A DNA stretch of 64,000 bases, from assembly GCA_963969365.1 (NCBI GenBank), contig OZ017752.1, positions 372,001 through 436,000 on the forward strand, read 5' to 3'. Position numbers and translations under genes: made by a program. The DNA is from Asterochloris sp. CNOR1 (Eukaryota > Chlorophyta > Trebouxiophyceae > Trebouxiales > Trebouxiaceae). The notes below the pieces were generated by a model that worked only from the letters and a program-made list of their open reading frames with translations, did not search any database and was not told where the DNA came from. Below, piece after piece: positions 1 to 64,000 of this stretch. Every line of letters starts with the position of its first letter. Position 1 is the stretch's first letter.

Positions 1-102
1 TGGCTCCCTCAGTCTTCAGGTTCTGACCAGCAGCGCCGCTCCTATCATGGGGGCTTCAGCAAAGGAGTCATGGACAATAAATTGCCATCTATACTGCTGC
101 AG

Positions 103-3062
103 GGCCCAAGGACTTGGCGCCTCAGTACTTCCTGACAGCTGGGTACACCCCTCCTGAGGCCTCAATCAGCATGGCAGATCACATGCTGGAGGTGGTCATC
201 AAGGCTCAGCCAGAGGAGGCAGGGCGCCTTGTGGACCTGTTCAGGTTGGCTGCCAGCTTAGTTCCAAGCCTCTGCTGCATGTCTAGCTTTGGCAGCTGGG
301 ACTGCCAGCATGGCTGCATGATCCTACTTCGTGAATCTCCTTTGGTCTTCACTTTTGCTTTATGTGTTTCCGGCAGTGCAAGTCGGAGGGCTGATGAGGA
401 AGGGCGCCTCATTGGCCTATTCAGATTAGCTGCCAGCCTGGTCCCATGTCATGGCTTCATGTGTGGCTTTGGCAGTTGGGGCTGCCAGATTTGTGTCACA
501 GTATCATCGGCAGCTCAACTCGGCATGCTGTGGCCTGCAGAGAGAGCGAGATTGCTGCCGCTGACCGGGAGGACATGGTGGAGCTGGCCAGCGCCAGTGA
601 GGCAGACAGGTGATGCCTTGCCTGCGCCATCGGCAAGCCCTTGCTGCATTGACCTCTCCATCAGCTGCAGCCCTCAGTGCTGCCCCCAGCTTAGGGTGGG
701 CATCTTTCCTGCTGTGCAGGGGCCTGCCTCCTGCCCGGTACAAGGCAGGCTACTGGCTGCAGCTGTCAGTGCTGTGCCAGAGGCTGGTGCGGGCCACCTG
801 GCGCAACCCCATGCTGCTGGCAGTCAACTGGGGCGCGGCCCTGCTGATGTCCCTGGGCGTTGGGGTGGTCTACTGGCATGTCACCCGCGACACCGGCGGC
901 ATCCAGAACCGATTTGGCAGCCTGTTCTTCATCCTACTGTACCTGGCCGTCATGAGCCTGAGCTCCCTGCCCTTGTGGATGGAGGACCGGCTGCTCTTCA
1001 TCAGGTGAGCTTCATAAGCGTTTGGCAGCTGTCATCACGTCAGGCCGTCATGAGCCTGAGCCCCCTGTGGATGGAGGACCGGCTGCTCTCCATCAAGTGA
1101 GCTTCCTCAGTGTTTGGCAGCTGTCCTCACATCAGACCAACGTGTACCAGGGTTCACGGCAGCAGGTGGTGCGCAGAACAGCATCGGTCCTGTCTGGCAG
1201 CCCGCTCTGGTCCAGCTGCCTTCTGCCTGAGCTGCATGGCCCTGTAAATGAAGCTCGCCTGCTCTGCAGCAGCACACAACCTGCAGAGGGGTCGGCTGCT
1301 GGCCCACACCAGCGTACTTCACCACATCAGCACTGTGGAACCAGCCCCACTGCCATCCATCCCACTCACTGCGAGCCGCCAATGCTGCAGTCAGCCCAGC
1401 TGAACTTCTGCCACCTGTGCAGCAGGAAACAGGTCAAGGGCCTGTCTGGCATGCACTGCCTGCTTCACTGCAATGGCAATGCCTGAAAGCAGGGGGTCAA
1501 TGTCCACTTCAGCTTTCACTCACGGTTGGCACCTGTGCTGCAGGGAGCGGGCCGCTGGTCTGTTTGGCACCCCCGCCTACTTCACCGCGATGGCGCTGTT
1601 CGACCTGGTCCCCATGCGTGTGGTGCCCCCCTGCTTCTTTGCTGCGTCCACATACTGGATGATCGGGTTCCGCCCTGGGGCCGCTTACCTGCCCTCCTTC
1701 TGGCTGACCCTGGTCCTCAGCAACATGGTGCGTGCCCGGCTGCATTGCCTGGCTTGGCGCTGGCTGCTTCATCTCCAGATGCCAGCTTCCAGCAAGTTCA
1801 GCAATCCACTGTGCATTATGTCTCTTTGGAGCCTGCCATGCTCTGAGCGCATGCTTGCCTGGTCCTTCAATGTAGCCCTCTTTGATGACATGCTGCCTGC
1901 CCAGTGCTGGTCTGCCTGCTGGCGTGTGAACGTCCCGTGCCATGCTTCTGTATGTGGATGCGTGGCTGCACAGGCAAGGCTGTGCTCCTCGCAGGTTGGG
2001 GCCTCGATGAACATGGCTGTGGGAGCTGCAGCGCCGTCCTCGGCGCTGGCCAACCTGTTTGGCAGCCTGGCGGTCCTGCTGTCCATTCTGTTTGGCGGCT
2101 TCCTGCTGAGCAGGTCTCAGATGCCCGCAGTGGTGGCCTGGATGGCCAAGCTGTCCTTTGTCAGGTGAGCTCAGGTCTTGACTGGTTGCAACTGACATGC
2201 TGTGCACCGGCAGTGGGGCCTGCTGTGGGGCATTCCACATCCCTGTGCAGTCTGAAACACGACTTGAGTAAGGTGGTTGTGACCTACCAGCAAACTAGGT
2301 AGGCCCAGAATTTCCCAAGGGGTCAAATCTGAGTGATGAAGGGGCCCTGCTCTGGTCCAGCTAGGCTCATGAACAAGTGAAACTTGCATGCAAACATGTC
2401 ACACAGTGACATGGAGCTTGATGCGGAGTGGTGCCAGGGTGGCCTCCTGAGGGGTGGTGCAGAGCAGCCTGCCGAGGAGTTTTGCGCAGTAGCAGTAGGG
2501 CCTGCTGAGGGCTGGTGCAGGGCGGCCTGATGAGGCAGGCATCCGGAATCCCTGTGCAAGCTGAAACAATGGGGCTCACCAACAGAGACCCGTCAGGCTG
2601 GTCGACACAATTGTCAGAGGCACTCTGGCCTCTGAAGGTGCTGCAGCCAGCTGACAGGAATCAATTCAATTTTGCTTTCCTGCAGGCACTGCCTGCTGAG
2701 AGCTTGCCATGCAGCAATGGCAGGCATCAGTCTGCCTCCATGCCGCCAGAATCAGGTGTCAACGGCATGTTTCGACATGTGGCATGCACTGAGCTTGGTG
2801 ATATGCTGCGTGCTGCAGGTACGCCTTCGAAGCGCTCATGTTCAACGAATTCCATGGTCAGCAGGATTTCTACTTCACCCCGTATGCTCAGGCGGCAAAG
2901 GGTGCCAAGCTGCCATTTGTCAAGGTCACTGGAGACACCGTGCTGGAGACCTTTGGCTTTGACACGCATGGCTGGTGGGGCAATGTCAGCATACTAGTTG
3001 TGCTGCTAGTCGGGTACCTGACCATCACACTGCTGCTGCTTACATTGAGACAGAGAGCATAA
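103..3062 (+). CDS. ABCG-family (WBC) half-transporter, 3' part
   Basis: This is the C-terminal part of an ABC transporter of subfamily G; the nucleotide-binding domain lies left of the window. Exons with matching phase are 103-244, 541-609, 720-1004, 1544-1727, 1995-2164 and 2819-3062 (TAA). The first exon carries the MADHMLEVV segment that follows the ATPase in ABCG proteins. The later exons form an ABC2-type membrane domain with about six hydrophobic helices; the motifs RERAAGLFGTPAYF, YWMIGFRPG, FGGFLLSRSQMP and YAFEALMFNEF match ABCG family positions. ABCG proteins export lipids, sterols or hydrophobic metabolites, but the substrate cannot be told here. Two exon-intron junctions have tandem decayed copies in the following introns (see repeats). 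Membrane topology and substrate are inference; family assignment is firm. Confidence 0.88.
211..490 (+). repeat. Tandem copy of exon end plus donor (ABCG gene)
   Basis: The exon tail and following intron at 211-310 recur at 391-490, exactly 180 bp later, with strong similarity (GGGCGCCT, TTCAG, TTAGCTGCCAGC... shared). The source has a GT donor after 244; the copy reads AG-AT at the same point, so its donor is dead. Confidence 0.75.
946..1136 (+). repeat. Tandem copy of exon end plus donor (ABCG gene)
   Basis: Unit 946-1043 is followed directly by a diverged copy at 1044-1136. Both contain the exon tail ending in the peptide WMEDRLL, a GTGAGCTTC or equivalent donor region and a TTTGGCAGCTGTC intron stretch. 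The first copy joins in phase to the exon at 1544; the second has AAG-TGAGC, so GT is present only one base shifted and out of phase. Confidence 0.85.
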
Positions 3063-3286
3063 ACCTCTCATGTGTGGGGGCAGAGGATACTGAATTTGAA
3101 CTGAAAACTGCATTTTACTTATAGCAGTCTGGCTGCCGTCCTACCTTGTCGGCCGCTGCGAAATCGAAGTAACCGTGGAGACCAGCGTATCAACAACATT
3201 CTCCCAGAAAGTTTGGTTTGAACACTTGCTGGGCTTGATCATCATCCAGCACAGACTGGCTAGCCCAGGCATTAGCAGCGTGGGGT

Positions 3287-6200: not shown

Positions 6201-6329
6201 TGCTGCAGGCGTAAGGACAACCTGCAGACAAGGGTTGATGCCAAAATTGCCAAGAAGCATGAGAAGCGCGACAAGAAGTTGATGCGAGCTGGCTTTGAGG
6301 GCAGGAGGGAGACACCTATAAATACATGA
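3287..6329 (+). CDS. SURF6: SURF6-like nucleolar ribosome-biogenesis protein
   Basis: Exons 3287-3703, 3984-4201, 4457-4577, 4808-4939, 5335-5420, 6009-6107 and 6209-6329 join in phase to a 397-residue protein. The N-terminus (KFFDGLVDMIPAQFYHP) matches the conserved SURF6 start. The middle is rich in Lys, Ala, Gln and Glu and is probably disordered. The C-terminal SURF6 domain has the typical order: VEVGG, then KKKLSKEQLLAEAERK, then GWQSALDRARGEKVLDDPKR, then the KEQKRKEKKGKEW basic helix, ending with RKDNLQTRVDAKIAKKHEKR. SURF6/Rrp14 proteins bind nucleic acid in the nucleolus and act in pre-rRNA processing. ATG at 3287 gives the conserved N-terminus. The border of exon 2 (GTTGGT donor) was chosen by phase and is the weakest junction. 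Confidence 0.9.
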
Positions 6330-6682
6330 AGCTTCACCACACCTTTCTCAGCTTACTTTCATTGCCTCAATGTTTCACACACGGTGACATAGTCAGGATT
6401 AGGGGTTTGACCGGTCATCCTGAGTCAGGCCCCAGCTGTAACAACAGCTGAACGACTTCTCCCTATATAATTGTGTTGTACCCCCATCTCCTGCGACTCT
6501 CAGGTCGTCCAGCTTCGATCAGATCGCTTCTTACGTGAAAGGTGTGCATGCGTGTGCTGGAGGCCTTGCCTGTGCTATGAAATTGCTGCTTGCTGATGTG
6601 CAGGGGCATCAGGCGCTTACCTGATCACCTGCCGATATCTTACCAATCATATTCATTGTGCAGCAGAACAGCTGCAGGCAAG
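6330..6682 (+). other. 3' UTR of SURF6 and 5' leader of quinone oxidoreductase copy 1
   Basis: No coding exon is seen. From about 6384 on, the sequence is a diverged duplicate of 10363-10640, so the duplicated unit includes promoter and leader. TATATAA occurs at 6464-6470. Short exon-like stretches ending in GTGTGCATGCG or GTACGCATGCG occur in both copies, suggesting a spliced 5' leader. Confidence 0.5.
6437..6441 (+). terminator. TGTAA polyadenylation signal of SURF6 gene
   Basis: TGTAA lies about 110 bp after the SURF6 stop codon. This pentamer is the usual chlorophyte poly(A) signal. Confidence 0.5.
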
Positions 6683-9600: not shown

Positions 9601-9935
9601 GCTTCAGTGAGTGCGTCTCCTGCTGCTCCTCGCAGGTTCTACAGAAAAGGGCTCAAATCATTGGCAGCACACTGCGAGCAAGACCAAAGGCGCAGAAGTG
9701 TGACATTGTGCAGCGGTTCTGGAACTTTGCAGAGCCACATTTCAGAAGCAGTGCGTTCCACCCCAAGCTTGATCAAACATACAAGCTCTCCCAGGTGAGG
9801 ATTTGTGCACGCTTGGCAGGCGTTGAAGGCTGCCCAGCGCACTCAACCTGCCACGCTGCCCCGCAGGTCAATGATGCAGTTGGGCGCATGCAAGAAAAGA
9901 AGAACACTGGGAAAATCATCATGGTGGTTGATTAG
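6683..9935 (+). CDS. NAD(P)H:quinone oxidoreductase, zinc-independent MDR family (copy 1)
   Basis: Nine exons (6683-6785, 6980-7033, 7357-7442, 7679-7792, 8079-8169, 8515-8690, 9142-9303, 9636-9794, 9867-9935) give 337 residues, the normal length for the PIG3/QOR branch of medium-chain dehydrogenases. Recognisable segments are GLECAGVVTDVG, EAAGIPE, the NADPH-binding glycine motif IHAGASGVG near residue 148, and VILDLVGA. No structural or catalytic zinc cysteines are seen. The family reduces quinones and enones with NADPH and protects against oxidative stress. All GT-AG borders are canonical. The protein is the upstream member of a tandem pair about 3.96 kb apart. Intron 1 (6786-6979) is absent from the other copy. 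Confidence 0.93.
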
Positions 9936-13600: not shown

Positions 13601-13890
13601 AGAGCTCAGATCATTGGTAGCACACTTCGAGCGAGACCAAAGGTGCAGAAGTTTGCAATTGTGCAGCAGTTTTGGGACTTTGCAGAGCCGCATTTCAGCA
13701 GCGGTGCTTTCCACCCCAAGCTTGATCAAACATACAAGCTTTCCCAAGTAAGTTCTGTGCAAATTTAGAAGGCTCTGAACCCTGCCGAGCGCACTCAGTC
13801 TGCCACGCTGCCCCGCAGGTCAACGATGCAGTTGGGCGCATGCAAGAAAAGAAGAATGCCGGCAAGATCATCATGGTGGTTGATTTATAG
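10641..13890 (+). CDS. NAD(P)H:quinone oxidoreductase, zinc-independent MDR family (copy 2, possibly impaired)
   Basis: Exons 10641-10797, 11091-11176, 11549-11662, 11918-12008, 12435-12610, 13048-13209, 13589-13747 and 13819-13890 give 338 residues, very close to copy 1 in the central and C-terminal exons but more diverged at the N-terminus (residues 2-25). Exon 1 equals exons 1 plus 2 of copy 1, with no intron between. The donor after 11176 reads CTGAGT where copy 1 has GTGAGT, so normal splicing there is doubtful; a GTGAAC donor three bases downstream would shift the frame. The acceptor before 12435 is GGAG instead of GCAG. Coding quality is otherwise intact, with the IHAGASGVG cofactor motif present. 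Either a recently damaged paralogue or one using an unusual donor. Confidence 0.8.
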
Positions 13891-20040: not shown

Positions 20041-23000
20041 ATGGAGGCACAGCTCTTGAGCATGCCTCCTCAGGTGCAATCCCTGGGGCATTCTGCGGCC
20101 TTTGACAGCTTAGAGGACAGCCTGCTCAGGGATCTGGAAGAGACGGTGAGGCGCCCAAATCCTGTGACGGCATCGGCATCACTGGCCAGCATCACGCTGT
20201 TCAGGCTGCATGCCTCTGGCAGGGCGAGGTGTCATGCACCTGCCGCAGACTAGGCCAGGAATCTGCGCGGCCTCTGGACCTAGCAATGCCTCTGGCATCA
20301 TGATCCTTCCTTGTGGTGGTTCCCTGCACCTTGAACGCCCAGGCCCACCCCTGTATTGCACTGCAGGGCATGACAGAGCTGGCCAATGAGCTGGGCCTGA
20401 TTCAGGATGGTGCGATGCCGGAGCTGCAGATGCAAGGTGCGTGCCCTGTGCAGGATCGATGAGCCTATTGCTGTGCCTGCCCAGGAGCCAGCCGCGCATC
20501 CATGTTGGCAACTAGGCAGGCAGTGGTCATCCGCGTGCTGGGGCTGGAGAATTCAACCATGTGTGAGGCTGGTGCAGCCGGCTGAATCATAGCACAGCGA
20601 TCATGACTGCTCCAGGAGGGTGCTTCCCCTCGTATGCTCCGGTCATAGATGGGCAGCAGGCCTGTGGATGGACTGCTGACACTCAGGGAGGTCGAAGCCA
20701 CAAGGCCTCCCCAGGCACATGCTGCTGCAGATTGTTCTTGCCCTCAGCTGGCATTGTGGGCCTGTGAGTCACTTGCTGCGTCTCTGCTGTGGCCAGGAAT
20801 TCAGCCATGATTTTGATCACACATTTGTCCATGCAAGTTTCAGCTGGAGAAGGGGACGCTTAACGATGACACATCTGCAGAGTGCAAGCGTCGCATGCTC
20901 GCCTGGCATGCCCGACAGGGTCAGCCATGTCTTTGGCGGGCCCCACCCGGTTGCATTCTGCATTCAGGTGGCAACATGCCTGCCCACTTGGAGCAACAGC
21001 AGAGTACTCAGATGCTGAGGCTGCCCCACCAGGCAGCTCACCAGCGCCCGCAGCACCATCAGGGGGCTCAGCCTCAGCGCCAGCCGCAGGCGCGGCAGAT
21101 GGGCGCAGGGCAGGCGCAGCGGCCGGAGGCTTCCAGGGCGCCGGCAGCACCCTCTGCCTTGGGTCCTGGCCCGTCCTTCCTGGGCTCTGCCCCAGTGCCC
21201 TTCGTTCGGCAGCCACTGGAGCAGGCATTAGACTCTCCTGAAGGTGAGCGGGTGCAGCCTGCAGGGCGCTCCTGCCCTGGCCTTGCTGCTCTATGCCCCG
21301 TTCAGTTGGGATTGCTGCAGGTGCACAACCATGGCAGGGGCTGCAGCCTGCCACCTGGAGCCACCCTATGTTGTCAGGGGCATGGTGCTGTCCAACATTT
21401 GGTTACGCAGCGCTTATCTGTCACTCCCAAGAAGCATCTGGCCCATGGGCACATCCCTGCTTGCTTCGGTCCTTCTTGGCAGTACATCGGTGCAAAGTCA
21501 GGGCGTCTCACACTTATGGTGAGCAGCCATGCTGTGGTTGTTGGGGCATGCCTGATGCCCCAGGAGGCGCATGCAGGCTCTAAACACCTATAAAGACTGT
21601 CTCCAGCACCACGCTCAGCATTTGGGCAGCCCTTAAACCCTGGCTCTGGCAGCCATTATTGGGAAGGCCACCATGCCAGCAGCTCAGGGTCCGAGTGGAC
21701 GCTGGGACCAGCTGGCCACTCTGCCTCTTTGTATCAGCACAAGGGGGCATCAGTACTGTTGCCGAGTCACTCTGCCAGCCAGGGAGGCATCTAATCTGGC
21801 GTGTGGCCCCATGTTCGCTTGGTCTGAGCACTTAGAGCGCCAATGTTACTTTGCCGGCTGGGGAGGTGCACCTTGTGTCGTGTGGCCCCATACTCCCTCT
21901 ATCTGAGCACTGGAGAGCGCCAATGCTACTGCCAGCTGGGGAGGCAGCCACGCTGGCCGCCAACCCCTGTGGGCAGCACACGCCGCCTGAGTAACTCACC
22001 ATAAACCCCTCACTGTGCCTGCAGCTGGAGAGGCCACCATGCTGGCAGCGGACAGCACGGCGCGGGAGGCAGTAGCCGCTGTGAGCGTGGTCACGCACCG
22101 CCTGGAGCGCCTGCAGCAGCATCACACCGAGGCAGGACCCAGCAGGTAGGACCTCAGGGCTTGCTGTCATGTCTCTTTTACGTGCTGTACCCAAGGACCT
22201 TCAGAGAAAAATATTTTCTGTGACGCACATGGCTCGGCAGTGTCTCGGCAGAGGGCACATGGCTGGCATGGCAGGCAGACATGGAGGTGCCCAGCAGGCA
22301 TGCCAGAGCAACAGCTTCAAAGCCTGCATGAGCATTTGGGGCACTGCCAGGCCAGCACCCCACAGCTTGACATGCCAGAGCAAAACTTGAGGAGCCGCAG
22401 TTGGGCACCCAGATTGTGCAGCTTGAGTATGGCAGTATGTGCTGGGCCTTGCTGTATGAGGGCCAACATGGAGCACCCTTAGGGCACCTGATGCCGCTGC
22501 AGGTCAGACGAGGACGATGGGTTGGACGGTGTAGCAGCTGCCGTTTCACCCAACGGCAAAGTAGCGCGCACTAAAAGGTGGGCACACCCAATGTGAGTGG
22601 CGGGCGTGACTCTTCATGTGATCTGGGCTGCACAAATTGTAGCAGCTGCTGCGTGACCCAATGGCAAGGCGCTTCTCATCATAAGGCAGATATGCTGGTG
22701 TGATGTGAATGTGGTCTGCATAAGCTTTGTGTTGTGGGAATGCTACCATTCCAACCAGCGGAAAGCTGTTGCGCACTGACATGTGGGCGCACCCCTCTCT
22801 TCAAGAGAGCCTTCAGGGGTAGGCAGATGTGGTAGGTGCTGTGTCGGCTGGATGGTGCAAGTCATCCAATGGCAGGGCCGTCTGCGACAAGGGTGTAGGC
22901 TGCAGGCATGGGTTCCAGCCATGAGGCTAGCCAAGGAAGAATCAGCTCACTGCATAATGAGGACATGTTGCAAGGGCAATGTCAGGGGTGCCCTGGAAGG

Positions 23001-26000
23001 TTTACCACTCTGCAGAGGCGCGAATCTGATTGCCCCTAAGCTTTGCTGGGTGTTGCAGGTGCCAATCAGGCCGTGCAGCCTTGCAGGCCCTGTGGGCAAT
23101 GCAAGGCGTGCTTGGCACGCCTGGGCTGCATGCTGAGCACTGTTGGATGCTGCCTTGGGCTGTGTCCTGGGCGCCGCAGGATGCTGCCCGGGCTGCAACA
23201 AAAGTGCTGCTGGGCACTGCCTGAGCTGATGCTGAGTGCTGCAGCTGCTGCCCTGCAGCATACGGTGCGGGCGGGGGCCGCCGGAGAGCACTCGTGGAGG
23301 CAAGGGAGGCATGAGGCACTTTTCCATGAAGGTGGGCATAGCAACCAGCCAAGCCAGCAAGGTCTCTGCTGTGGGCCCTTTGTGGAGGCAAATGCTGACG
23401 GTGCCAGGTTGCTGTGAGTTTATGCCTTGGGAAGTATCCACTTGGACTGACTGCAGGCCCTACGACGCACATCTCAGTTTTTGAGATTGGAAAATAATCG
23501 GCTGAACCTGCAGGCTCTAGCAGGGCAGGTCTGCGAAAAAGTGGAGGAAAAGGCTCGCACAACCTACAACGAGGTGGCTGATGAGCTTGTGGCTGAGTTC
23601 AGCAATGTCGATTCCGCTGGTGAGCTGGGGGCTCTCTGCAGTCTGAGGTGTCTTCCTGCTGGATGGTGCATTGCATGCCCATCTTGATTGCATGCCGCCC
23701 AGCCCCCCACAACATGGCTAGCAGCCGAGCGCCATCGACCTAGCACAGCCCGCGCCTCAATGGGTCTGCGGAGCGGCTGCGGCCTTTTGCCTCCTCGGGA
23801 CCGCCATCTGCAGGCGGTTGCAGTCATGCTCAGCCCCGTTTCCTGCAGGCTCCCCTTAAGCCACTCATTACAGAGTGCTCACTTTGCAGGCCTGCGTCCT
23901 GCTGGTCAGGGTCAAGCGCTGATGTATGCTGCTGGTCCCCTGGTCCCTCTGCTGAGCCACGAACAGTGCCCCCTGCAGCCTTTCCCTGCAGCACACAGTG
24001 CAAAGCAAAGAACATTCGACGTCGCGTCTGCACAACCCGGGGCGTGCTGACGGTCATGCAGATTGTGTCCCTGCTGCTGGCCGCAGACGCTCCTGGCAGC
24101 TCTCCGCATCCCAGGCCTCAGCGAGCTGCATCTGCTGCCCCTGACAGCCCTCGCTGTACCCTGCAGGCTCACTGGGGGGCACACAGTACGACGAGAAAAA
24201 CATTAGGCGGCGCGTCTATGATGCCCTGAATGTGCTGATGGCCATGGAGATCATTGCCAAGGAGAAGAAGGACATCCAGTGGAAGGGGCTCCCACGAGGA
24301 CACAGCAGCACCACAGACAGACTTCGGGGGGAGCGTGCCAGGCTCACAGAGCAGCTGCAGAAGCAGCAGGAGTTCATCGGGGTGGGTGCCCATGGTGATG
24401 GCGTTGGTAGATTCTGCTATGCGGCCTGCAGCAGGCAGATAACATGGCACACGCCTTTTCACAAGCAGCAGACGTGGGGACAGCCTGGCTCGCAGAGCAG
24501 CTGAAAAAGAAGCAGGAGTTCTTTGAAGTGGCTTTCACAGGGAGGCATCTTGTGGATCTTGCCTTGCCAGCTGCAGCATGGGGAAAAAACATTGGGCATG
24601 CTAAGTAAAATGCGTGACAACTCAGCCACGATTTGGAGGTCCAGATGAAGGACGCCTGTGCTGCAGCTGATGTGGCCCCTTTGCGGGGACCGAGCATTGC
24701 ATGGTGCCTCTGTGCAGAGCCACTGGTGAATGTCAAGCCAGCCCTGCCCTCTGTCTCGGCACTGCGATCACAGTACATTGGTGGGCGTGTGAGTTGGAAG
24801 TGATCCTCAATGCCAGCTCCTCCCCTGTGTGCAGGAGCTGTGCGCGCAGCAGCGCATGTTCCGTAATCTGGTGGCCCGCAACAGGGACGTCCCTCAGGAG
24901 CAGCTGCAGCGCCAGCTGGCCGCCAACGGTGGGGTGGGGCGCAACCCTGTGCAGCTGCCGTTCATCCTTATCCAGGTGAGCAACAAACAGATGTGATGGT
25001 GTCCACCACTGGAATCGGTGATGCTGGAGTGCCTCCAGCGCTGTTACAGCCTTTCTTTGTCTGGCAGGCTCCATGCTCCTACATGGCTCCAGGATGGCCA
25101 CCCCTCGTTCTTGACCAGATGTGCCTTTGGAGACTGCTTCCTCGACCTGGTGCCTGTCTGGCTTTGCAGGCTGCTAGCTGCTCCTGCCCAGCTTGGGCTG
25201 CAACGGCCCTCTGCCTGGTCCAGGCCAAGCAGTTTCCACCACATAGGAGGCGACTGTTCATATGCATGTACCCTTCAGGCCAGGCTTGCTCACTGTGCAT
25301 GGATGTTGTAGGGCTCAACTGGGGTGTCCACCTTTGCTTCGGCCCACTTGTGCTGCATCTTTCTTTGTGCTGCTGGAAGGGTTGGGGCGTGGCGGGTCCA
25401 TTGCGGCAGGCTGCTGCTGAGCAGCAGGTCCTGGCGGTTTGCGCTGCAGGCAAGCCCTGAGAGTCAGCAGACTGCAAGCTCTGGTGCTGCTCACCCGGAC
25501 AGCCTGTATTGTCACTGGGCCATCAGGGCAGCCAGCAGCAGCAGGCAGTGGTGTTGCAGCCTGCCCCGGCAGCATGTGCTGCAGGCAGACTGTGAGGGTC
25601 GCTGCCGGCAAAAACTGTTGCTGCTGGCCTCCCAGCCTCAGCTGCAGGTGGTTGTTGAAGGTGGCGGGCAGCTCAAAAACACTCAAGGGTTGTGGTGGCT
25701 GCTCATCCTGGCAGCCTTTGCTGCAGGTGGGCCCAGAAGCAACTGTGGAGATCCAGATCACGGACAACCAGCAGATGGCCGAGTTCGACTTCCACATGTG
25801 AGTTGGCTGGACCCTCTGGCCGCCAGCATGGGTCAACTGCTTGGAGTTGGCATCTGGCCAGTCCTTGCCTGAGCTTCATGCAAACGGCCATGGCATGCTG
25901 TGTTTGCCTGCCAGCCCCAAGGAGCATACACACAATCTGCAGTACCCTGCTCCAATCCCTACTCCTGCCTTCTGAAGGTCCCCCTTCCGGATCATGGACG

Positions 26001-40583: not shown

Positions 40584-43500
40584 TCACAACCTGCGCTCAT
40601 AGCTGATGCCCTGCTGCACATACTTGACAATGCAAAATTCGTCCATCCCATACTTGGACTGCTCGCGTCCCAGCCCTGACTGCTTGATGCCGCCAAAGGG
40701 AGCCACCTCGCTGGTGATGCCCGCCTCATTGACGCCGACCATGCCATACTCAAGCTCCTCAGCCACCTTCCATGTGCGGGCCAGGTCCTGGAGCACAAGG
40801 GGATGGCAGTGAGTCCTCTATGTGTGCCTATCGTTTGCAGTAGTGGCCTCCGGCGGACTTGTTGACAAAGGCAACAGCTGGACACAACCATGATGCCAGG
40901 GTCCCTGCTGCTGGCAGCTAGGCGCTTGGTAAGTTGGGCAGGCCTGATGATGTGCGTGTAAGATCCAGCCTGCAGATTGAACCTGGAGCCACCCCGGTCT
41001 CCACTCTCAGCCTGAGCGCCTACATTTGGACATCAATAAACCTGATTGCAGCTCCCCAGAGACAATCATACTTTGCGGGGGGGAGAAGCTCTCATTCGCA
41101 GAGGGGCGCCAAACCTGCTACAGGTCTTGCGCAGCCCAACCTCAAGTGCAGCTGCACAGGGACACTGATCCTGTCAGGAGTGATGGCACAGATGCACTGC
41201 CCTGGCCTCAACACCAAGAGTCGTTTGTCCCACCCGGGTGAAAAAGTAGGCTGCCAGGCCATAGATGGTGTCGTTAGCCATCTTGACTGCCTCCTCGTCG
41301 TGCTTGAACTTGAACAGGGGGATGGCTGGACCAAAGGTCTCCTCCTTGTAGATCTGCACCTGAGTGGCCCTCAGCAACACATGATGGCACGCTGCAAAAG
41401 CCTGCCTTGTGCAGCAGCCCACTCCAACGAGTTCAATTGAGATTTGCAGCATCAGTTGGCATGCATGACAGCTGTCCACCAGTGTCTGCCCCCAAGTATG
41501 CGGTGATGCTTTGTTATGTCTGCTGCTGTGCTGCTCAGCACGATGCCCAGAGACGCCAACACAGCCAGCTCGGAGGTCCCTGGCGGACACTGACATAAGC
41601 AGCTCAGCAGTCACTTGCCACGCAGAACCAGAACACACACACCCACATGCCTCACCGTCATGTCAATGGTGCACTGATCCAGGACAGTGGGGCTGAAGAA
41701 GTTGCCCTTGTCCAGAGGGGAGGGCAGGGAAGGGCGGCCGCCACCTGTCCGCACACGAGCCCCTTTCTGCACTGCATCATCCACATGTTCCTGTACCTGC
41801 AGCAGCCACCGCAGGGCACCTCAGCACAGGATATTTGCTTCCAGAACAGACCAAACTGATTGAGGCCTGCACTCGTCCACGACATGCAGCATAGCATGCA
41901 AAGACCCCACACCACATGTGGTCAGGTGCCCACAGCGGCCTCAGCATGACAGCGCTGTCATGGTGGAGCAGCTCAACATGCTCTCCTAGTTGGCAGCTGC
42001 AAAAGATGACCAGGCAACTCCATGCTCAGTGCGGTCTGGGCGAGCAGGGGCAGACTCACCCTGTTGGCCTGGATGGAGGGCCTCATGTACACCCAGGATG
42101 CAAGCTCAGACCAAGCCTGACAAGAGGGTCTACAATGCCTGTGAGGAGGCAGCAACCTGTGCGCTTGAGGATGGTGAACTGCCTACTCACTGTTTCACCA
42201 GCATCCCTGCTGCACCAGCTGATGATGCTTGCCCAGCTGAACCAAACTTGTCGGCCCTCACGGAGCAGCGTCAAAATGCAGGTAGGAGGGCAGGTGGGCA
42301 CAATCTCACCCTGTCCACAGCTGCAGGCGAGATGAGGGGCCCTAGAGTGACCCCTGAGTCCATTCCATTGCCCAGCTTGAACTTGTTGACCATGTCCACC
42401 AAGCTCTGGCTGAATTGCTCGTATATGCCTTCCTGCAGGCAGCGACGCAGGCAAGGGTGGTACCTCAGGACTGGAGCAGGCAAGGGCCAGCAGGCCTGCA
42501 GGGCACGTGGGTAGGGCAGATGGCAGACTGATGCATTGGCGAAACTTATGCCTGCCACAGCTTGAAGCTCTTCATGCCATGATAGCATGTCCTCCAGACA
42601 AGCCCGCATGGGTCATGCCAAGAGCACAGAGACTTCAGCATGCCAGTGTTCACATGGCCTGATAGACACCTGCCAATATCACCCCCATCACATGGCTGTG
42701 CGATGCAGTTGGCCCCTGTGATGAAACAGCATTTGTGTCATTGTTGTCAGGTTGCAGAGCCTCTTAAAGCGGGCTCCAAGACTCCCTTCTCACAACTCAG
42801 TGCCTGACAGTCAGTCACAGGTACATGAGCAGACTAAGTGCAGACCCTGGTCAAATCAAAGATAGCCCTGACACCAAGCAATATGAGCAGGCAAATTCCT
42901 GCGTAAAGGACGCCTTTCACCTCCCCACACTCTACTCCCTCCCAGGGAGATCAATTGCAGAGTTGCCACGCAAGACTTCTGTGCCCGTCGAGAAACCATA
43001 CTCATACAGAGACCGCATTGCCAAAGATGCTTCCCTTCCCCCTTGCTCTTGCGAGCAGGACTGGGCCAACCAGTAACAGTCTCAACTGGACCAGTAAGCT
43101 CTTGGCGCAGATGCAGGTCTGCCCAATCGTCCTGATTGCCAAGCCCCAGCAGAGATGCCCCAAGTCGCTCACCTGGACTAGAATCCTATTGGCACAGATG
43201 CAGGTCTGCCCAGCGTTCCTGAAGGCAGATGTCACCACAGTTGTGGCCGCCTGCTCCACGTCTGCATCGTCAAACACGATGAAGGGGGCATTGCCACCCA
43301 GCTCCAAGGAGACCTGCAGGAGGCAGCCTATTGTGTGAGGAATTTTTGTCAGCAGCGCTTGCAAGGCACCCTGCATGGCGCGAGGACTGATGACAGAGGG
43401 CAGTGCGTGTGGAAGCTCGAAAAGAGGGCTGTCTGGCACTATGCCGAAAGAGAACCACTGCTTCCCTCCAAGCATCCAGGGTATGGCTGACGTGACTAAA

Positions 43501-46500
43501 CAGCAAACGTTGCAGGACACCCCAGCAAAGGCCATGGCCCTCAGCCACCACACCCTTGCACCAAAGCAGTGGTTGAAAGTGCAACACTCCTTCACTTTTG
43601 CCCATCGCCCCACATGTGTGAGCTCCAGCAACTGGGCAGGCATCAAACTTGGTACCAGGCATGAATGCATTGGGTGCTGGTCTATGTAGCATTGCATCCA
43701 CAACCGCATTCAGCCTACCACTTGCGGGTTAGTCTACCACATGTTGCAGCACATGCCATTCACAGGTGCTGGTGGCTCTTTTGCACAGCCAACTTCTCTT
43801 GCTGCAGGTCGGCCTTGACACTTGTATACCATAGAGCTTGACAAGGCTATGCCATCAAGGTCTCCTAGACAGTGTCTGTGGTCACTTGACTTCCCCATGC
43901 TGAGCTGGACTTGATCACTTTCACCCCCACCCAGCGGCCCACACCTTTTTCACTGTATCTGCAGCCTGCTTCATCAGGAGTTTGCCCACATTGGTTGACC
44001 CCGTGAAGCCGATCTTGCGCACCTCAGGCGACGCCAGCAGCGTGTTGCCTGCACAGCAGCATGCACAGATGCGGTGGGACATGTCATGCGCTGCTGGATG
44101 CACATTTTGGGTCTTCCGCAACACAACTTCATAGTGAGTGCCTTGCACTGCTGCATGCACATCCAGACCCTCACGCAACACAGCAACATGACGAGTCCAT
44201 TGCCAGCAAGGCAATGCACATCCTGGCTATCCCCACACAATTGGCAGCCAGTGAGGCTCCCTTGCATGCTTTTCATCAGCTGGATCACCACTGCTTGGAG
44301 GTGTCCACAGTCAACAGCGTGCTGCCGTACCAGGCAGGCATGGCACTTGCCAACCCTACTTTCCATGAGCATTGTGCTCAAGTCCACACATGGCCTGGGC
44401 ATTGAGAGGGTCTGGGCAGTAACCTGCCACTGCTCACCCAGGCCAGCTCATCCAGGCCACCTCATCCAGGCCAGGACTACCGCTGGTCAAGTAACAGCAC
44501 ACACTGGACGGGAACTTCTCTGAGCAGGCCAATCAGCTGTGCCACTCTCTGCAGCATGACCTCGTGCACTTGCAATCCCCTGCTGCAGATGAGTTGGCCA
44601 TCAGTATGACCAGCCTTGGTCCAGGTGTTCTTGAAACCCTGACAGTGCTGCCTTGCCACCTTAACTGACGAATGGCTTTGTTGCAGCTTGTGCTTGGGAC
44701 TGGTTGCATACATGCACCCATGAGCACAGAGATGTACACCAGGACACCCGATACTGCCGCCTGCAGGCCTCACCTATCTGCTTGGCATCGCCCACAACAA
44801 TGTTGAGCACACCAGGGGGGATGCCTGCCCGCCGCGCAAGCTCAGCCAGCGCTAGCGCAGTCAGCGGGGTGGCCTCTGCAGGTTTGAGGACCACCTGCAT
44901 CAGAAGCCTCATAAGTCAAGCTGGGTGACAGGAACTTTTGCATCATCTTGATGAATGATCTATTGAGCAGATGAGCCAGGGACCGCAGAAGGAACCACAG
45001 AAGAAGGGGTCAGGGGGCACCTCCAGCCTTAACAGAACCACGCAACTGCAGGCAATAGCTGCCTCTCACATGCAGCAAATGGCTTCAAGATGCTGCTTGC
45101 TCAGCCCAGGTGTGCCTGGGAGCCCGTCCTTGAGATACTGATGTGTCTTTGGGAAGCTCACCAAATGGCCCATGTCTGTTAGACCCTCTAGCACACAGCA
45201 TTGGCAGCAGCCCATAGCTTGTGGTCTTTAGCCTACTTGCAGGACAGCCTGCTGCCAGCCCAGCAAGCAAAACCTGGTTGACCCCTGGTCCTAGCCCATT
45301 GCCTCCATGCTATCCATTCTGAGATGGGGATTGTGCATGACTCACTGGGCGGCCCAAAGACATGGATAGGGCCACCTTGTAGGTGATCGGAATCAAACAC
45401 TTCCAGCAGCAATCAGTCATCTACCCGGCAGGCCCACAGCCCAGAATGCACAATACAAGTATGGTCTTGCGCACCTTGCACCGGCCAGCCCACCGCAATG
45501 GCAGGTGGTTGATCAGGATCGCGAGCATCTCAGGTGCCGTACCGCCTCTCACAGGAAACCCAGACCAAGTCTAGTGTGCGCACAACTCACCGGGCAGCCC
45601 ACAGCGATGGCGGGGGACACCTTGCGGGTGATCATGCTGAAGGGGAAGTTCCAGGGCGTGATCGCCCCCACCACTCCAATGGGCTGCTTCATCACGACGG
45701 GGCGGTGCGTGGAGCTGACAGTCTGCAGGAGGTCGCCATTCAAGCGCTTGCACTCCTCGGCAAACCACTCGATGGAGGCCACCCTGCATGCCAGAGGGGG
45801 AACCATGGGGGGGGACACTCTTCTGCAAACCACTCGATGGAGGCCACCCTGCATGCCAGAGGGGAGACCATGGGGGGGACACTCTTCTGCAAACCACTCG
45901 ATGGAGGCCACCCTGCATGCCAGAGGGGGGACCATGGGGGGAAACACTCTTCTGCAAATCACTCGATGGAGGCCACCCTGCATGCCAGAGGGGGAACCAT
46001 GGGGGGAAACACTCTTCTGCAAACCACTCGATGGAGGCCACCCTGCATGCCAGAGGGGGAACCATGGGGGGAAACACTCTTCTGCAAACCACTCGATGGA
46101 GGCCACCCTGCATGCCAGAGGGGAGCCCATGGGGGGGGGACAGGGCAAGCCACAAACAGCCGACGGGGGCTGTCTGCCCATCTCACGGGCAGGCTCTCCT
46201 CAAGCATCTGCTGCAGCACGCAGACCCAGCCCTCTGAAAAACCATTGGGCTGGGTACCCCACAAAATTGTACCGCCCCTGATGCTCACCAAATGTTTGTC
46301 GTACAGGCTGCAATGCGGTCAGGTCAAGACACATCAGACAGCTGGCTAGCCCCGCCGCAGTGCTCACCCTGATACAAACTCCCCATGCGACTCCTTCAGG
46401 GGCTTGCCAGACTCCATTGTCATGATGGTGGCAATGTCATCTTCATGCTCCAGCACCAGTTGATACCTGCAGGCCTGTAATGATGAAAGGCGAGCAATGG

Positions 46501-53106: not shown

Positions 53107-56100
53107 TCAGGGCCTTGGGAACGGCTCCTGCCCAGGCGCGTGCTCCAGCTTGTGCAGCTTGGCCAGGTCATGCCGCTGCTTGGAGGGTGGGTATGAATAC
53201 TCAAACTCTCCTGCAAGTCCTCCAAGGGTCCACCCCAGCCACGCCAGCACAGCGCTGCCGCCTGCCAACCTGCTAAGTGGGGCGCCCTGACCAGCAGATC
53301 CCAGTGCCAGGACAGCAACTGCAGCTGCACCCAGCAAGCCAGCCAGAGTCCAGGCGGCCGCACTGCCACGCTTGAAGTTCTGCCAGGCGGTCATGCTGCT
53401 GGGCACCATGGCTGTGTGGCAGGCAAAGCGGTCCAGCACCTGATCCCTGGCAGCCTCTGGGGACAGCAGGCGTGGCTCAACTCCTGCAGCGTATGCAGTG
53501 CATCGCCTCAGCGCACATGCCAGAGCAGGGTCAAAGTGGCAAAACCAGATAGCAGGCCCTCCTCCGGCCCTGCAGCAGTACGTACACTCAGACCAGACCT
53601 GTCACAGGCAGGCCGATTAGCAGTGGGAGAATCCCATTGAAGCCACTCCGGGGGGAGAGCAGGCAGGGCTGCAAACCTAAAGCAAAGATGAGCAGAGCTG
53701 CCAGGAATCAACCTCCATGAGACTAGCTGTCACTGCAACTCCAAGATGCACAGCTTCAGCTTGGCAGAGCTCTTGCGTGAACCAGTGTGGTTGTAGCTGA
53801 GCCCTGCGGCTGCTGCCGCCCAATTTGTTGTCAACAGCACAGTGTACAAGACACATGCCGACTCAGAAAAGCTGCCTGAAATCGCCTGGACACAGCACAG
53901 GAAACCGGTAACTGACTCAAATTTGCCAGTCGCAGCCCACAGCTCACCTGCGCTTGACCCCAGGGGCAGGCTGCCTTCGTAGCGGTTAGGCATGGAGACT
54001 ATGGCGCCGTCCAGCCACCTCCCAAAATGAATCAGCAGGGAGTCAGTGGGGGAGCGGTGGCAGAACCAGCGCCTGCGGGCCATGGGTGCCTCCTGCTGCC
54101 GGCCCCCCTTGCTGTGGCCATTGCTAGGGCTCTCTGATTGCTCCTTAGCAGCAGCAGCCCTGACCTCTGCCAGCTCGCACCCCAGGGTGGTGGCCTGCTG
54201 AGTGGCCAGCAGGTAGGTGTCCTGCAGAAGGAAGCAGTCTTCTATGACAGCCATGCTGCCTTCATGTGCTGGGGCCTGAGCAGTGGACACTGCTGATCCA
54301 TCTGCCTCACAGGCTCAGGGCCTCACATGACAGTCATCATACTTCACACAGATGTAAGGCCCTAGGCAAGCATGGATGCCTGCCATTGAGCGGGCTGTAG
54401 GGCTTCACTGTCTGACCTGATCAAGAAAGCGGTTCAGGAATATGCTGGTCAGCCAGCGGGGTGGGTGCAGATTGGGCGCCAGGCTCCTGATGTCTGCAGG
54501 CCATGCACAGGAGACAGTGAAATGTGGAGCTACCTGAGGTGGATCACAGGCCTAACTTAGCATCAACAGTTCGGGCTTCTTCAGCTTTGTGGATTACTAG
54601 CTGCCTTTTAGAGATTGGGGCAAACAACTTGCAGCTGTGCTGCAGCATCGGTCAGTCCAGTGCGTGCTGTGACAGTGTTGCTGGCCACAGTCAAGCAGCT
54701 GCAGGGACAAGCCTGACTGGCCACTGGCAGCAGCGCAGCTCAGCAGAGCTGCTGCCAAGCATAGAGGGGCTGCCTAAAAGGGCAGCCATGCAGGCCACTC
54801 ACAGCGAGCAATGAAGCGGGTCCTGCCCAGCCCCACAGGAAGGACGTAGAAAGCCGTGATGAAGTTGGTCCTGCAGTGTCAGTGAGTCAACATCGTTTTG
54901 TAGTTAGCTCAGTCAGAGCTGAAGCTCACAGCCGCTGGGGCAGCCTGATGAATGATGACTGAGGCCATGCAGGGTTGCTGTGCAAACCAACATCTTCCAG
55001 CAGGCTGACAGCAGTCTGTGATCAGTTACAGTCTGCCCCAGCATGCACTATCAAGTGGCAGGCCGACTTGGACAGGTACTCACTGCCCTTGCTTGCCCCA
55101 GCGCAGCTGGGCATTGCGCTCATGCAGCAATGCAGCTGCAGACAGCCTGCAGCTGCTGGGCAGGCAATCTGCCTGTGCCATTGCACACCATCTGGGCAAG
55201 CGGTGAGAGCCATGCCCGCAGCAGCCACACTCCAGGGACAGCCCACTTGTGCACCTGTCGTTCCGGTCATGCTGGCTCCAGAGCACAGTGACAGGCGCAT
55301 CAGAAACAATTCTGGCAGTAGGTCTGCGGCACTGGTGGCACGCCAGGGACAGCCCACCTGTCATTCTGGTCGCGCCGGCTCCAGTGTACAGTGACAGGCG
55401 CATCGAAGACGATCCTGGCAGTCAGGTCCGCGGCACTGGTGGCCTGCTCCCCTGGCAGCGGCTTGGTCTTGGACGCGCTGTCCTTGCCTGTCATCTTGAG
55501 CACTGCTGGAACCTCTCCCACCAGCTGCAGGTGGCACTAGGTGGTGTTGTATTTGGCAGGCAATATGAGGAAGCTCTTTGAGCACTGCTGGAACCTCTCC
55601 CACCAGCTGCACGTGGCACTCGATGGTGTTGTGTGTCGGCAGGCAATATGCTGGGGTGGCCATGGCCTGCCCGCCGGCTGCCGGTGGCATCAGGTGGTTT
55701 GTGGTGAGAAAGGGATACTGTCTAGGACTAGTCCCACCAGCTGCACAATTGCATTGTGTGGCGCCTTCTCCAGCAGGCAGTCTAGTGATGCAGTTGATAT
55801 TCCACATGTATCGATAGCTCTGGCGGCAGCCAGTGCTTGCTGGAGGGCAGCAGAGTATGAGCGCAGGACAGTCGCTGCAGCAGATTGAGCCTGTGAGCCG
55901 GGTGGCCATGGGAAGCTCTGCTGACAGGCCATGCTCAAGCAGGACTTAGTGCACTGAGGCCAGGCCTGAATGAACACAGCCCGCCTGTCACTCAATGCCA
56001 TTTTACTCCCACCTTGAACTGGTTGTCTCCTGCAGCCTGCTCACTGATGTGCATGGGGTAATCTGGGGAGGCAGTGTAGCTGTCAAAGCTGGCTGCCTGG

Positions 56101-58695: not shown

Positions 58696-61091
58696 ATGGC
58701 GCTCAGCTACATAATCAGTGCTCAAGGTGAGCTTAGTCTTTATTTCAGCTGGTCTCAGCTGGCTGGCTCGGCCTGCCTGACACGACATGGGAGGAGCCAT
58801 GTGCTGCATGTGATCTGGACTGTTCACCTGTGAGGTCTCCCTGTGACTGATGCAGGCAAGCGCCAAGCTGTCCCTGCAAAGCCAATGGAGCCTCTGTCCA
58901 GAGTTGTCGACCAGGCCGTTGAGGTAATGAAGCTGGACACAGATGCTGGCAGCTGCAAGCTGTTACACAATGGCAAGCAGCTGGACCTCAGCACGCCTGT
59001 CCGCTTCGCCAACCTGCCTCGAGATGCCAAGCTGGAGCTGGTTACAGGTAGCTCTTGGTGTGGTGCTTGGCTTTTGAACTATGCCTTTCAGGAGCCTGCT
59101 GGCTCAGGCTGCACCAGGGCGCACCGCAGGTCTGCAGCAAGCAGGTGCTATTGATGAGGGTGCTGCATGCGTTGTCTCTGAGCTCAGCAATTTGTGTGTG
59201 GAAGCGATCCCTGAAGGTCCACCCATCCTGCAGGCCAGGCCAACCAGCAGCTGGGCCTCCGTGACAAGCTCAATTCGAGCACACAGCCTCCTGAGGGCGC
59301 CCCTGCTGCCTCTCAGAACACGACAGCAGCAGCCTCGCCCCACCAGCCTGAGCAAGCAGGCCCTGCCACGCAGTCCCAGCCAGCAAAGGGGCTCAGCTCA
59401 ATGCTCGGCAGAGGCGCAGATGCTGGCAGCAGCTCCAGCGGGCCAGGTCCTCTACTGCCTGAGGTGCCGGCAGAGCAGCGTGCACTGGGCCTTGGCAGGG
59501 CAATCAACCTCTTCTCACGGGAAGCAGCTCTCGCTGCCGAAAGCCAAAGGTGACTCCATACGACCCATCGCAGTCAGCTTTCTGCTGCTGCAGCTGTCTC
59601 CTTGGCATCTTGCCTTGTGCCATCTGAGCCAATGTACGTCCACTGTGATTGCTAGCCTCAAAGCAGGTCATACCCATTGCTTGGGAGTCCCAGTGCTGTG
59701 TCTCCTCTCATCATGGTTGCACAGATGGCTGATTTCCACAAAGGGGTGCAGGCCCTCTGGTGATGTGGCTGAGCCTTCCCCTGAGTTTTTTGAATTCACT
59801 CCAGATGATTACCACAAGGTTATGGCAGGTCAGTGCAACTTGCCGTTTTGTTACCTGCATATGCTGCATGTCAGGGGCGTCTGCCTGCCCATTTGGGGAA
59901 ATGAAGCATCACCCAAGGCCCAAGGCAGTGTACAAGGTTGCTAAATGGCTTTGAGCAGCATGCTCTGACAGTGCGCCCATGAGACTGCCTGATAACCCAC
60001 TCCACGCTCGCCAGATAGGTCTGTCAGCGGTGAACTGCGGCCTGCAGGCTGGGCACGGCAACACGCAAAACAGGGGGCACCGCTGAAGACCAAGAAGCTG
60101 CGGGACCAGGAGGCCCTGGCCAGGGCGCAGGCCATGGGTCCTGTGCCTATCCGCGTGCACTTCCCAGACGGCCTCATCCTGCAGGTGACCGTGGCCAAGA
60201 GCGCCTCTTGCACAGCTTTGTGCAGCCAGGGGGCCCTTGCCAGGGCACAGGGGCAGGGGCTGTGTGCGCATCTGCATGCACTCCCCTGGGAGCCTTGACC
60301 CTGCAGGTGGGCTTGCTGAGGCAGAGGTGCACGTCTGCTGCTTGTTTGAGCGGCTCCCTCACGGCCACCACGCTGTGAGGCCTCCTGCCCAGCTGTCCTG
60401 CGCCCTCAGGCCCCGAAGCCAGCTTGCCTGTCACCTGCACATACTGCACGCTGCTTTGTGCCTGAACGGCTGCCGCCCATGACCTGCTGGCACCACTGCC
60501 ACTTGGACAGCTGGGGCATGGTCCACCAGCGCTGCAGCTTCGCCCCTGCTGTCGTGTTGAGGCATGTTGTGGCAGCTGCCGCTGCCCTGAGGCGCTGCTC
60601 CATATTGCAGGGCCTAGTGTAGTGGCCCTGACTGTGCCTGCAGATGCTCTCACAGGGTCTGCTGCTCAGCTGCTTGTTCGGCGCAGGCGGTCTTTGCAGC
60701 CAGAGATCCTGTGGCCAGGCTGAAAGATCTGGTGGGCATGTGTCTGGCTCATGGGAAGGCTCCCAAGTCCTGGTATCTGTACACAGCGCCGCCCAAGCAG
60801 GCGCTGAGAGACCTCAGCCAGAGCCTGTACCAGGCTGAGCTGGCGCCGGCTGCCAACGTGTACTTTGGCACTGATGGTATGGCCCCCACAGGAGAGCAGG
60901 TGCTCAAGCCGGAGGTGCTGGCTCTGCTGGGGCAGCCCCCAGGTCGTAGCAGAGATGCCCAGCAGGCGCAACAAGGCTTGGCAGGTGGCCAAGGGCCAGC
61001 AAACCAGGGCAGCGCTGCTCCCCATGCGTTGGATGCGAAGCTCAGCGCCGCAGACAAGGGCAAGAAGGTCCCCAAGTGGTTCAAGAAATGA
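58696..61091 (+). CDS. ASPSCR1: TUG/PUX1-like UBX-domain protein (ASPSCR1 family)
   Basis: Six exons (58696-58726, 58856-59047, 59234-59549, 59752-59828, 60048-60184, 60687-61091) give 385 residues. The first 75 residues are a TUG-type ubiquitin-like domain (CKLLHNGKQLDLSTPVRFAN then LPRDAKLELV). A Pro/Ala/Ser-rich linker follows, then ALGLGRAINLFSREAALAAE and FFEFTPDDYHKVMAG. The UBX domain (about 230-320) has PIRVHFPDGLILQ, VARLKDLVGMCLAHGK and WYLYTAPPKQ. The tail ends GKKVPKWFKK, also typical of this family. Relatives bind and disassemble p97/CDC48 hexamers (plant PUX1) or tether vesicles (animal TUG). The exon 4 acceptor could also be at 59724, adding nine in-frame codons. Nuclear or cytosolic location is inferred. 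Confidence 0.9.
60113..60310 (+). repeat. Decayed copy of UBX exon 5 end
   Basis: The exon end 60113-60190 (GCCCTGGCCAGGGCGCAGG ... CGCGTGCACTTCCC ... CTGCAGGTGACC) recurs at 60231-60316 (GCCCTTGCCAGGGCACAGG ... GCATGCACTCCCC ... CTGCAGGTGGGC). The donor survives but the frame is lost. Confidence 0.8.
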
Positions 61092-62792: not shown

Positions 62793-62867
62793 CTGCATGC
62801 ACAGTCAGCAACACAGGACCTCTCTTTCCGGCCAAACAAGCAGCTTGAGAGCCCATGTGTGCTGCAG

Positions 62868-62980
62868 TTGTCCGGGACGATGCTTATCCCCCCATCAACT
62901 TCACCATGGACACTTACAAGGAGGTGGATGCTGCAGGACGGGGTTATTACAGCAACAGCTTGAAGAGCCTTGACTGCTAA
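62868..62980 (+). CDS. Possible terminal exon of an unidentified gene
   Basis: After a GTGCTGCAG acceptor the + strand reads VRDDAYPPINFTMDTYKEVD then AAGRGYYSNSLKSLDC and a TAA stop. The residue composition looks protein-like, but no matching upstream exon was found on this strand, and the minus-strand hypothetical exon starts only 75 bp to the left. It may be a fragment or coincidence. Confidence 0.25.
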
Positions 62981-64000
62981 CACACACATCAGAGGCTAAC
63001 AGGCTGCCAAGCCACATGATGTACAACGCATGGCTGACTGCCATGGGATGCCCAGCAACCTGTAGCATGCCTGTCAGGGAAGGCAGAAGCTCCTGAGCTC
63101 TTTTAAGCCCCTAGGACCGTCTCAGCGGTGCTCTGTCAGAGTTGAGCAGCCTTGGGACACATTTCAGCACAGCAAACTGCCAGCACAGCAAACAGCCGAC
63201 ACAGTGCGGGCAGCACCTGCTGAGTCTGCACAAGTCTCGTTCCTTGAATAAATTCTGCTATAGCCAACGAACAACCGCCATAGGTCTGCAGGAAACACAT
63301 CAGTTTACCATGTGCTGGTGAGTCCAAACGGATTTATACAAATGAGAAATATTTGCTTTGCCTGGCAGGTATAAGACAGTAGCTGGTGGACCAGGGGATT
63401 TCCATGGCACATAGAGAGGACACATGACAGTGTCTATTGCACAGGCCCAGGTGCACCCACGGTACTGCTCAACAGATTGGCATGCTGGAGCAGTGTGGAC
63501 CTGACAAAGGTGGCAAGATCTGGCTAGGGGCTTGCTGGAAGAAACTCGACAGTGACTGTTGTAGCTGAGCATAGGGGTGGCTGTGGGCAGATATCTGAAA
63601 GCTGCTGCTGGCAGGGCCAGCAGGCCTCTTCAGTTGCCAGAGTGCAGCGCTGCAGGTCTGCAGCAGCCAGCCACCATCCAGGCTTCAGAGCAAAATGTTG
63701 CTAGCCCAGGCAGTCAAGGCGTAGTGCCTCATCAGGCAGCCGCCAGCAGCAAGTAGAGAGGATGTGGGGACAGGCACTCCTTGCAGGCATCTGAAAGTTT
63801 CAGACCATGGCCCCATCCTTCCTTCATTGGCAACCCCCCTGCAACTCTGGATGTCCTGAAACACTGCTGATTCAATCTAGCAGACAGGAGACGCGCCCAT
63901 CTTGTCACCAGCAAGTGGGAAAGATCATCAGCGGTTGCCACGTTGCAGAAGCCACTGTCAAGACCTCTGGCAAAAGGGGTTCTGCAGGGCATTGCAGAAA
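62981..64000. other. Right-end region without recognised genes
   Basis: Both strands contain only short frames with no recognised domain. Exons of a gene continuing beyond the window cannot be excluded. Confidence 0.4.

Follow-up and report, generated by a model that had tools for sequence, protein, structure and literature searches.

Introns of the green alga Asterochloris sp. CNOR1 hold decaying copies of neighbouring splice junctions, probably left by short local duplications

In a stretch of 64,000 nucleotides from the green alga Asterochloris sp. CNOR1 (contig OZ017752.1, C7:372001-436000; hereafter the window), predicted introns repeatedly harbour diverged, directly oriented copies of the exon-intron borders that flank them. 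A first-pass annotation of the window had described this geometry, with exon ends copied into the downstream intron and exon starts into the upstream intron, and our analysis of the window together with 20 stretches of 10 kb from elsewhere in the 56.4-Mb, 21-contig genome (contigs 1-6, 8 and 9, each stretch beginning near base 500,000) confirmed that the observation is real. With a probability of roughly 0.7, we favour the explanation that short segments are duplicated locally and in direct orientation, at places roughly uniform along genes, and that selection then chooses the working copy.

Comparison of the window with itself at a threshold of at least 35 bits yielded 26 direct pairs with less than 300 bp between their members, of which a single array in a predicted SSADH gene accounts for four, and no inverted pair. 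When 26 pieces of 10 kb (the 20 sampled stretches and six from the window) were taken together, direct pairs outnumbered inverted pairs below 300 bp by 91 to 1. Within 1 kb at at least 30 bits, window and sample gave 165 direct and 8 inverted pairs, the direct ones being reduced to 149 by a complexity filter that was applied to them only. Beyond 5 kb, the window held three pairs that reached 35 bits, one direct and two inverted; its strongest longer-range matches came from a quinone-oxidoreductase-like tandem gene pair whose members are about 4 kb apart, and a tandem-repeat finder returned 11 rows for it. Three of the 20 sampled stretches (L002, L010 and L016) had no direct pair within 1 kb at at least 35 bits. 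Direct orientation, a length of tens to hundreds of base pairs and proximity to the source, as found here, characterize short local tandem duplication.

Gene models were derived with a small self-written, self-trained gene-finding hidden Markov model (HMM), trained on the 264 kb of window and sample, whose splice signals converged on CAG/GTGAG for the donor and CTGCAG/G for the acceptor. The acceptor consensus is strict, with more than 1.4 bits each at T, G and C. Predicted exons and introns are short (medians of about 81 and 180 bp, respectively). Predictions in the window matched the Pfam families ABC2_membrane, SURF6/RRP14, zinc-binding dehydrogenase (twice), Rieske/PaO (in two genes), E2F_TDP/DP, lipid desaturase, YbeY, HAD hydrolase, aldehyde dehydrogenase, trypsin-like protease and TUG-UBL1, and one of the seven window proteins submitted had no Pfam match. 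As the HMM fused some adjacent genes, left five stops at split codons in complete models and called some decoys as exons, counts that depend on the models contain errors.

Exons were compared with their adjoining introns for the 334 of 693 predicted introns that passed a filter (at least 100 bp long, flanked by at least 25 exon bases on each side and not terminal in the model). At a Smith-Waterman (SW) score of at least 26, 51 of these introns matched their own flanking exons, compared to 0.73% of like-length introns from other genes, 1.1% of distant introns from the same gene and 4 of 334 when the exon was reverse-complemented. At an SW score of at least 30, 38 introns still matched, versus 0.05-0.08% of shuffled pairs and 1 of 334 with the reverse-complemented exon. 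Introns that matched at this higher score were longer (median 416.5 versus 265 bp), a difference to be read with the fact that longer introns also offer more room for a match. The first-pass annotation had named such a comparison with shuffled pairs as the way to overturn its claim, along with matches due to low complexity only; the claim withstood the comparison, and the same control rejected the second possibility.

The pairs were next reduced to events: 137 of the 149 direct pairs had a spacing below 400 bp and collapsed into 107 non-overlapping events (30 in the window, 77 in the other 200 kb), comprising 60 in which one copy touches an exon and the other is intronic, 26 confined to introns, 19 with both copies touching predicted exons and two intergenic. 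By position, 38 of the 60 exon/intron events are exon ends copied downstream and 22 are exon starts copied upstream. The copy sits in the intron adjoining the copied exon in 56 of the 60, as the first-pass annotation had it, and 42 of these 56 have an aligned core that approaches the junction to 3 bp or less. Predicted junctions lying inside aligned pairs numbered 28 for donors and 17 for acceptors, two of the latter without a fully aligned partner. Spacing ranged from 56 to 352 bp with a peak at 80-120 bp, where periods of 35-240 bp had originally been given, and identity fell between 70 and 90% in 89 events. Altogether, 77 of the 693 predicted introns host a recognizable event, and the detected spacings total 12.0 kb of 171 kb of intron, which we take as a lower bound for the duplicated share, old copies becoming unreadable.

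The copies appear to decay much as unused sequence should. Across the 60 exon/intron events, copy and working sequence differed at 17.8, 15.3 and 23.3% of the three codon positions and at 17.8% of intron positions. The donor GT was intact in 20 of 28 aligned copies (18.3 expected without selection) and the acceptor AG in 11 of 15 (9.8 expected), small numbers that are close to those of near-neutral decay. These data support both the decaying copies of many ages and the decoy splice sites of the first-pass annotation. That the copies are instead functional, serving under selection as alternative or decoy splice sites or as poison exons, is in our view very unlikely: many copies keep GT or AG and five intronic units of the SSADH array have intact TGCAG acceptors, in favour of such a role, but retention lies near the neutral expectation and differences, though few, are spread over all codon positions. 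Less probable still is an artefact of misassembly, of low-complexity TGCTGCAG content or of gene-finder circularity, even with self-trained models and a strong CTGCAG acceptor consensus. The contrast between direct and inverted pairs is independent of gene models, shuffled pairs carrying the same signals match in only 0.7-1.1% of cases, Pfam and PDB matches back many exons, and the 70-90% identity of most events would not result from misassembly, as the first-pass annotation had argued from the divergence of the copies. Chance and low complexity were rejected on the strength of the shuffled pairs and the direct/inverted contrast. Exon-precise RNA-mediated copying was also rejected, on the basis that junction-reaching cores extend more than 15 bp into the intron in 40% and 4-15 bp in another 40%.

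The SSADH array illustrates the pattern. Its last unit forms the start of the working exon and the other five lie in the upstream intron, TGCAG being intact in each. The repeated motif occurs once in each of the two solved SSADH sequences shown in the alignment and five of the six units should therefore be intronic; here, where homology permitted a check, the working exon is single, as the first-pass annotation had claimed. In the census the array was classed with the six window events in which both copies touch predicted exons. The five intronic units share variants that are missing from the working copy, and a search of the array stretch, the only one compared with the whole genome, returned a single match, namely itself. 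In three of the intronic units the gene finder predicted short exon-like stretches (30, 15 and 30 bases), whose lengths, as multiples of three, would preserve the frame if they were used.

Under the explanation that we favour, units of about 60-350 bp (mode about 100 bp) would be duplicated locally and in direct orientation, head-to-tail or nearly so, and roughly uniformly along genes. A duplicate within an exon would be harmful and lost. One that spans a donor would be harmless when the upstream donor stays in use, leaving a copied exon end in the downstream intron, and one that spans an acceptor would be harmless when the last acceptor stays in use, leaving a copied exon start in the upstream intron. 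Each event would lengthen the intron by one unit, and the copy outside the splice sites that we infer to be in use would decay through neutral substitutions and indels. The mutation itself is probably a short tandem or near-tandem duplication from break repair, most likely through end joining at staggered breaks or paired nicks, with replication slippage as the other candidate.

Several results weigh against this explanation, beginning with the placement of the duplications. A usable host intron was available for 73 of 86 events, and if these had been placed uniformly over the intron as it was before duplication, 41.5 ± 3.6 would be expected to involve an exon, yet 50 did (z 2.4; 1.4-2.2 in other subsets), and the core reaches the junction in 0.80 of the 60 exon/intron events, compared to 0.49 of events simulated at an age (d) of 0.2-0.3. 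Both figures would suit a preference for splice junctions, with breaks or template switches concentrated at borders (through the CTGCAG/GGTGAG signals or transcribed DNA) and introns growing by junction copying, a reading that we consider unlikely. Duplications simulated in 75 hosts and subjected to the same detection gave an exon-involving share of 0.57-0.61, approaching the observed 0.68 (51/75), under settings (exon rate, indel rates, ages) that were assumed rather than estimated and with a host filter slightly different from that of the 73-event set. The simulated share climbs with age, from 0.53 at d 0-0.1 and 0.59 at d 0.1-0.2 to 0.87 at d 0.2-0.3 and at least 0.95 beyond, where few events are detected, since old copies remain recognizable where the exon sequence is under constraint; we ascribe the exon-involving excess to this slower decay on the exon side. 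Simulated cores at d 0.1-0.2 reach the junction in 0.82, as often as those observed, and conserved working splice signals, which the simulations lack, should draw cores to junctions. With exons and introns this short, about half of all tolerated duplications (0.55-0.58 in host introns of the simulation) touch a junction. A first simulation with present-day intron lengths had put the exon-involving share at 0.43, well below the observed 60/86, and was replaced because present introns already include duplicates. Junction targeting is thus not needed for the observed share, with which a modest preference is compatible, and the first-pass proposal that splice junctions are what is copied was not supported: 26 of the 107 events are intron-only, and random placement with selection predicts nearly the share of exon-involving events that we observed. 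Doubtful to the same degree is an unusually active border-favouring duplication (for instance through breaks at transcribed DNA or splice signals) that has made a large part of intron sequence from copies of neighbouring junctions; if it were true, introns would hold a readable record of their own growth.

The manner in which the copies are born raises further objections to uniform head-to-tail duplication, although several of the highest-scoring cases in the window (at 945, 37791, 35475 and 55228, and the array at 45751) are head-to-tail. The core spans less than half the spacing in 65% of 75 events, versus 13-38% in uniform-age simulations and 59-68% in simulations at d 0.2-0.3, and the tandem model therefore needs mostly old events (d 0.2-0.3), more long indels than assumed, or births that include a spacer. 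A predominance of old events would be odd under steady birth, and young head-to-tail copies are rarer than predicted. A strict flank-extension test was positive in 11 of 94 events, which suggested spacers without homology. A gap-tolerant test for similarity beyond the core (p<=0.05) was significant in 26% of 39 and 25% of 36 events when these were split by identity; it reached 50% among 24 intron-only events and just 14% among 51 exon-involving ones. Applied to simulated decayed tandems, both kinds pooled, it gave 29-30% at d 0.1-0.3 and 13% at d 0.3-0.45, and so does not separate the data from decayed tandems. Templated insertion, in which a nearby segment is copied in with a spacer at break repair and which differs from our preferred explanation in the birth step only, the selection filter being the same, is a possible but less likely source. 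The many spaced pairs with short cores speak for it, as do rice insertions, said in a review to include partially tandem ones and non-tandem ones from less than 200 bp of the break (PMC7407515); the near absence of inverted copies and a gap-tolerant similarity across the unit like that of simulated decayed tandems speak against it. The data can fit old head-to-tail duplicates, and a share of spacer births would also explain the shortage of young copies. Finally, the two quinone-oxidoreductase-like genes (6372-10017 and 10354-13952) are 78.4% identical over 3413 aligned positions including introns and their comparison shows 15 gaps that measure 12 bp or more, two of which fall where a compared stretch ends. 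Two of the 15 gaps resemble their flanks above every random place tried and the other 13 do not, and tandem duplication is therefore not the sole source of length change.

Introners, which copy themselves into many genes, were rejected together with transposons as a source of the copies: the genes of the window are nearly without mutual matches except for the one tandem gene pair, and the SSADH array stretch matched itself only. Natural short tandem duplications in rice were reportedly described by Vaughn and Bennetzen in 2014. In a review's account of that work, rice insertions of 10-1000 bp are tandem, partially tandem or drawn from within 200 bp, and are ascribed to staggered-nick breaks and end joining (PMC7407515). 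The Asterochloris copies resemble these in being short local duplications near their source, but they come from one genome, are mostly older, and stand out by the filter that exon/intron structure imposes. According to Ma, Lan and Niu 2016 (PMC4974935), a tandem duplication crossing an intron-exon boundary gave the potato RdRp gene a new intron in a single case; the duplicated pieces here cross such borders too (at the 28 donor and 17 acceptor junctions), but existing introns are lengthened, and in many genes. The same paper describes Rogers-type intron gain, where duplication of an AGGT-containing exon segment starts within the exon and creates an intron, and exon-duplication cases are known for Drosophila introns (PMC2891723). 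Both share with our cases an intragenic tandem duplication rendered harmless by splicing. Whereas Rogers-type gain has an exonic unit with a new intron between the copies, the unit here usually touches a junction or intron that is already present and enlarges that intron, the other copy being intronic in the 60 exon/intron events (in the adjoining intron in 56) and the 19 both-exon events being set aside. Small tandem duplications also arise, at induced breaks in mouse and human cells (PMC8355091), through Pol alpha-primase/CST fill-in and end joining; these products are short tandem duplications like ours, with a repair origin demonstrated there and proposed here. Introner elements are described as shaping intron content genome-wide (PMC9860276). 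Among the matches listed for open-licence papers, no title or abstract opening reported a genome-wide pattern of the present kind or about a tenth of introns affected.

The type of mutation is thus known, and what we describe looks like a dense example of it rather than a new machine. What is notable is the density (77/693 introns), which comes from one genome and for which we claim no exceptional standing among algae. Blind local duplication and selection on the mRNA can give a regular-looking pattern in which introns gather decoy copies of their own junctions. Intron growth could be measured in this genome, and the five decoy acceptors of the SSADH gene could be used to test how the spliceosome chooses among near-identical sites. 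There is also a risk that gene finders mistake decoys for exons here, as our own HMM did.

The 30 non-overlapping window events (at least 30 bits, spacing below 400 bp) comprise 18 exon/intron, six both-exon, five intron-only and one intergenic event, and the working exon piece falls within a Pfam-matched stretch in 8 of the 18. The initial figure, twenty or more cases in ten genes, is roughly right when weaker, model-dependent cases are included; homology backs nine, in four predicted genes (ABC transporter, DP, YbeY-HAD and SSADH). Their description as extending across the whole window was slightly generous, no event being called in the two quinone-oxidoreductase genes or in SURF6.

Table 1. 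Individual duplications in the window (window coordinates).
Position	Strand	Feature	Identity and remarks
213..488	+	ABC-transporter gene: exon end (exon 103-244) and intron start 213-308, copy 393-488 in downstream intron	77%; copy donor GT changed to AT
945..1138	+	ABC-transporter gene: exon end (exon 720-1004; repeated piece 945-1004) and donor, head-to-tail, spacing 98 bp	85%; copy retains GTGAG; exon in Pfam ABC2_membrane
1409..1594	+	ABC-transporter gene: exon start (exon 1544-1727) and acceptor, copy 1409-1477 upstream in intron	74%
21766..21944	+	DP gene: intron-only tandem duplicate, spacing 79 bp, no junction	77%
23991..24251	+	DP gene: E2F_TDP-domain exon sequence 24179-24251 (12 bases inside exon start), copy in upstream intron	70%
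35475..35789	-	Head-to-tail duplicate over predicted exon/intron borders, spacing 158 bp, exon called in both copies	75%
36828..37229	-	YbeY-HAD gene, HAD-hydrolase part: exon end (exon 37186-37458), copy in downstream intron	76%
37791..37999	-	Tandem duplicate, spacing 104 bp, exon called by gene finder in both copies	84%
38255..38537	-	YbeY-domain exon end (exon 38515-38710), copy in downstream intron	79%
43081..43212	-	SSADH gene: exon end (exon 43173-43313), copy in downstream intron	84%; copy donor GT changed to TT
45332..45633	-	SSADH gene: exon end (exon 45591-45783), two copies in downstream intron, 45332-45388 and 45468-45505	75%, 79%
45751..46138	-	SSADH gene: six 65-bp units, acceptor TGCAG and exon start	pairs 92-96% identical
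55228..55443	-	Second Rieske-oxygenase gene: head-to-tail duplicate over predicted borders, spacing 111 bp, exon called in both copies	80%
55496..55650	-	Tandem duplicate over acceptor, spacing 82 bp	92%; copy retains TGCAG
60106..60309	+	TUG-like gene: exon end (exon 60048-60184), copy in downstream intron	75%

The intron-only duplicate of the DP gene is an instance of the same process in which no junction is involved. Elsewhere in this gene (24337-24521), a 39-base exon piece occurs twice and flanks a predicted intron of 50 bases; possible readings are a copied exon, a decoy and an intron born by duplication. The predicted YbeY and HAD-hydrolase parts adjoin within a single reading (30101-39219), and listed proteins that combine both Pfam domains span green algae and land plants. 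The names or codes of the five top-scoring relatives of this protein (46-51% identity) point to Trebouxia, Coccomyxa and, by our reading of one code, Botryococcus. Lastly, the sampled stretch L002 bears two long open frames on the minus strand (about 4527-9273), the first of which looks by eye like an endonuclease/LINE-type protein.

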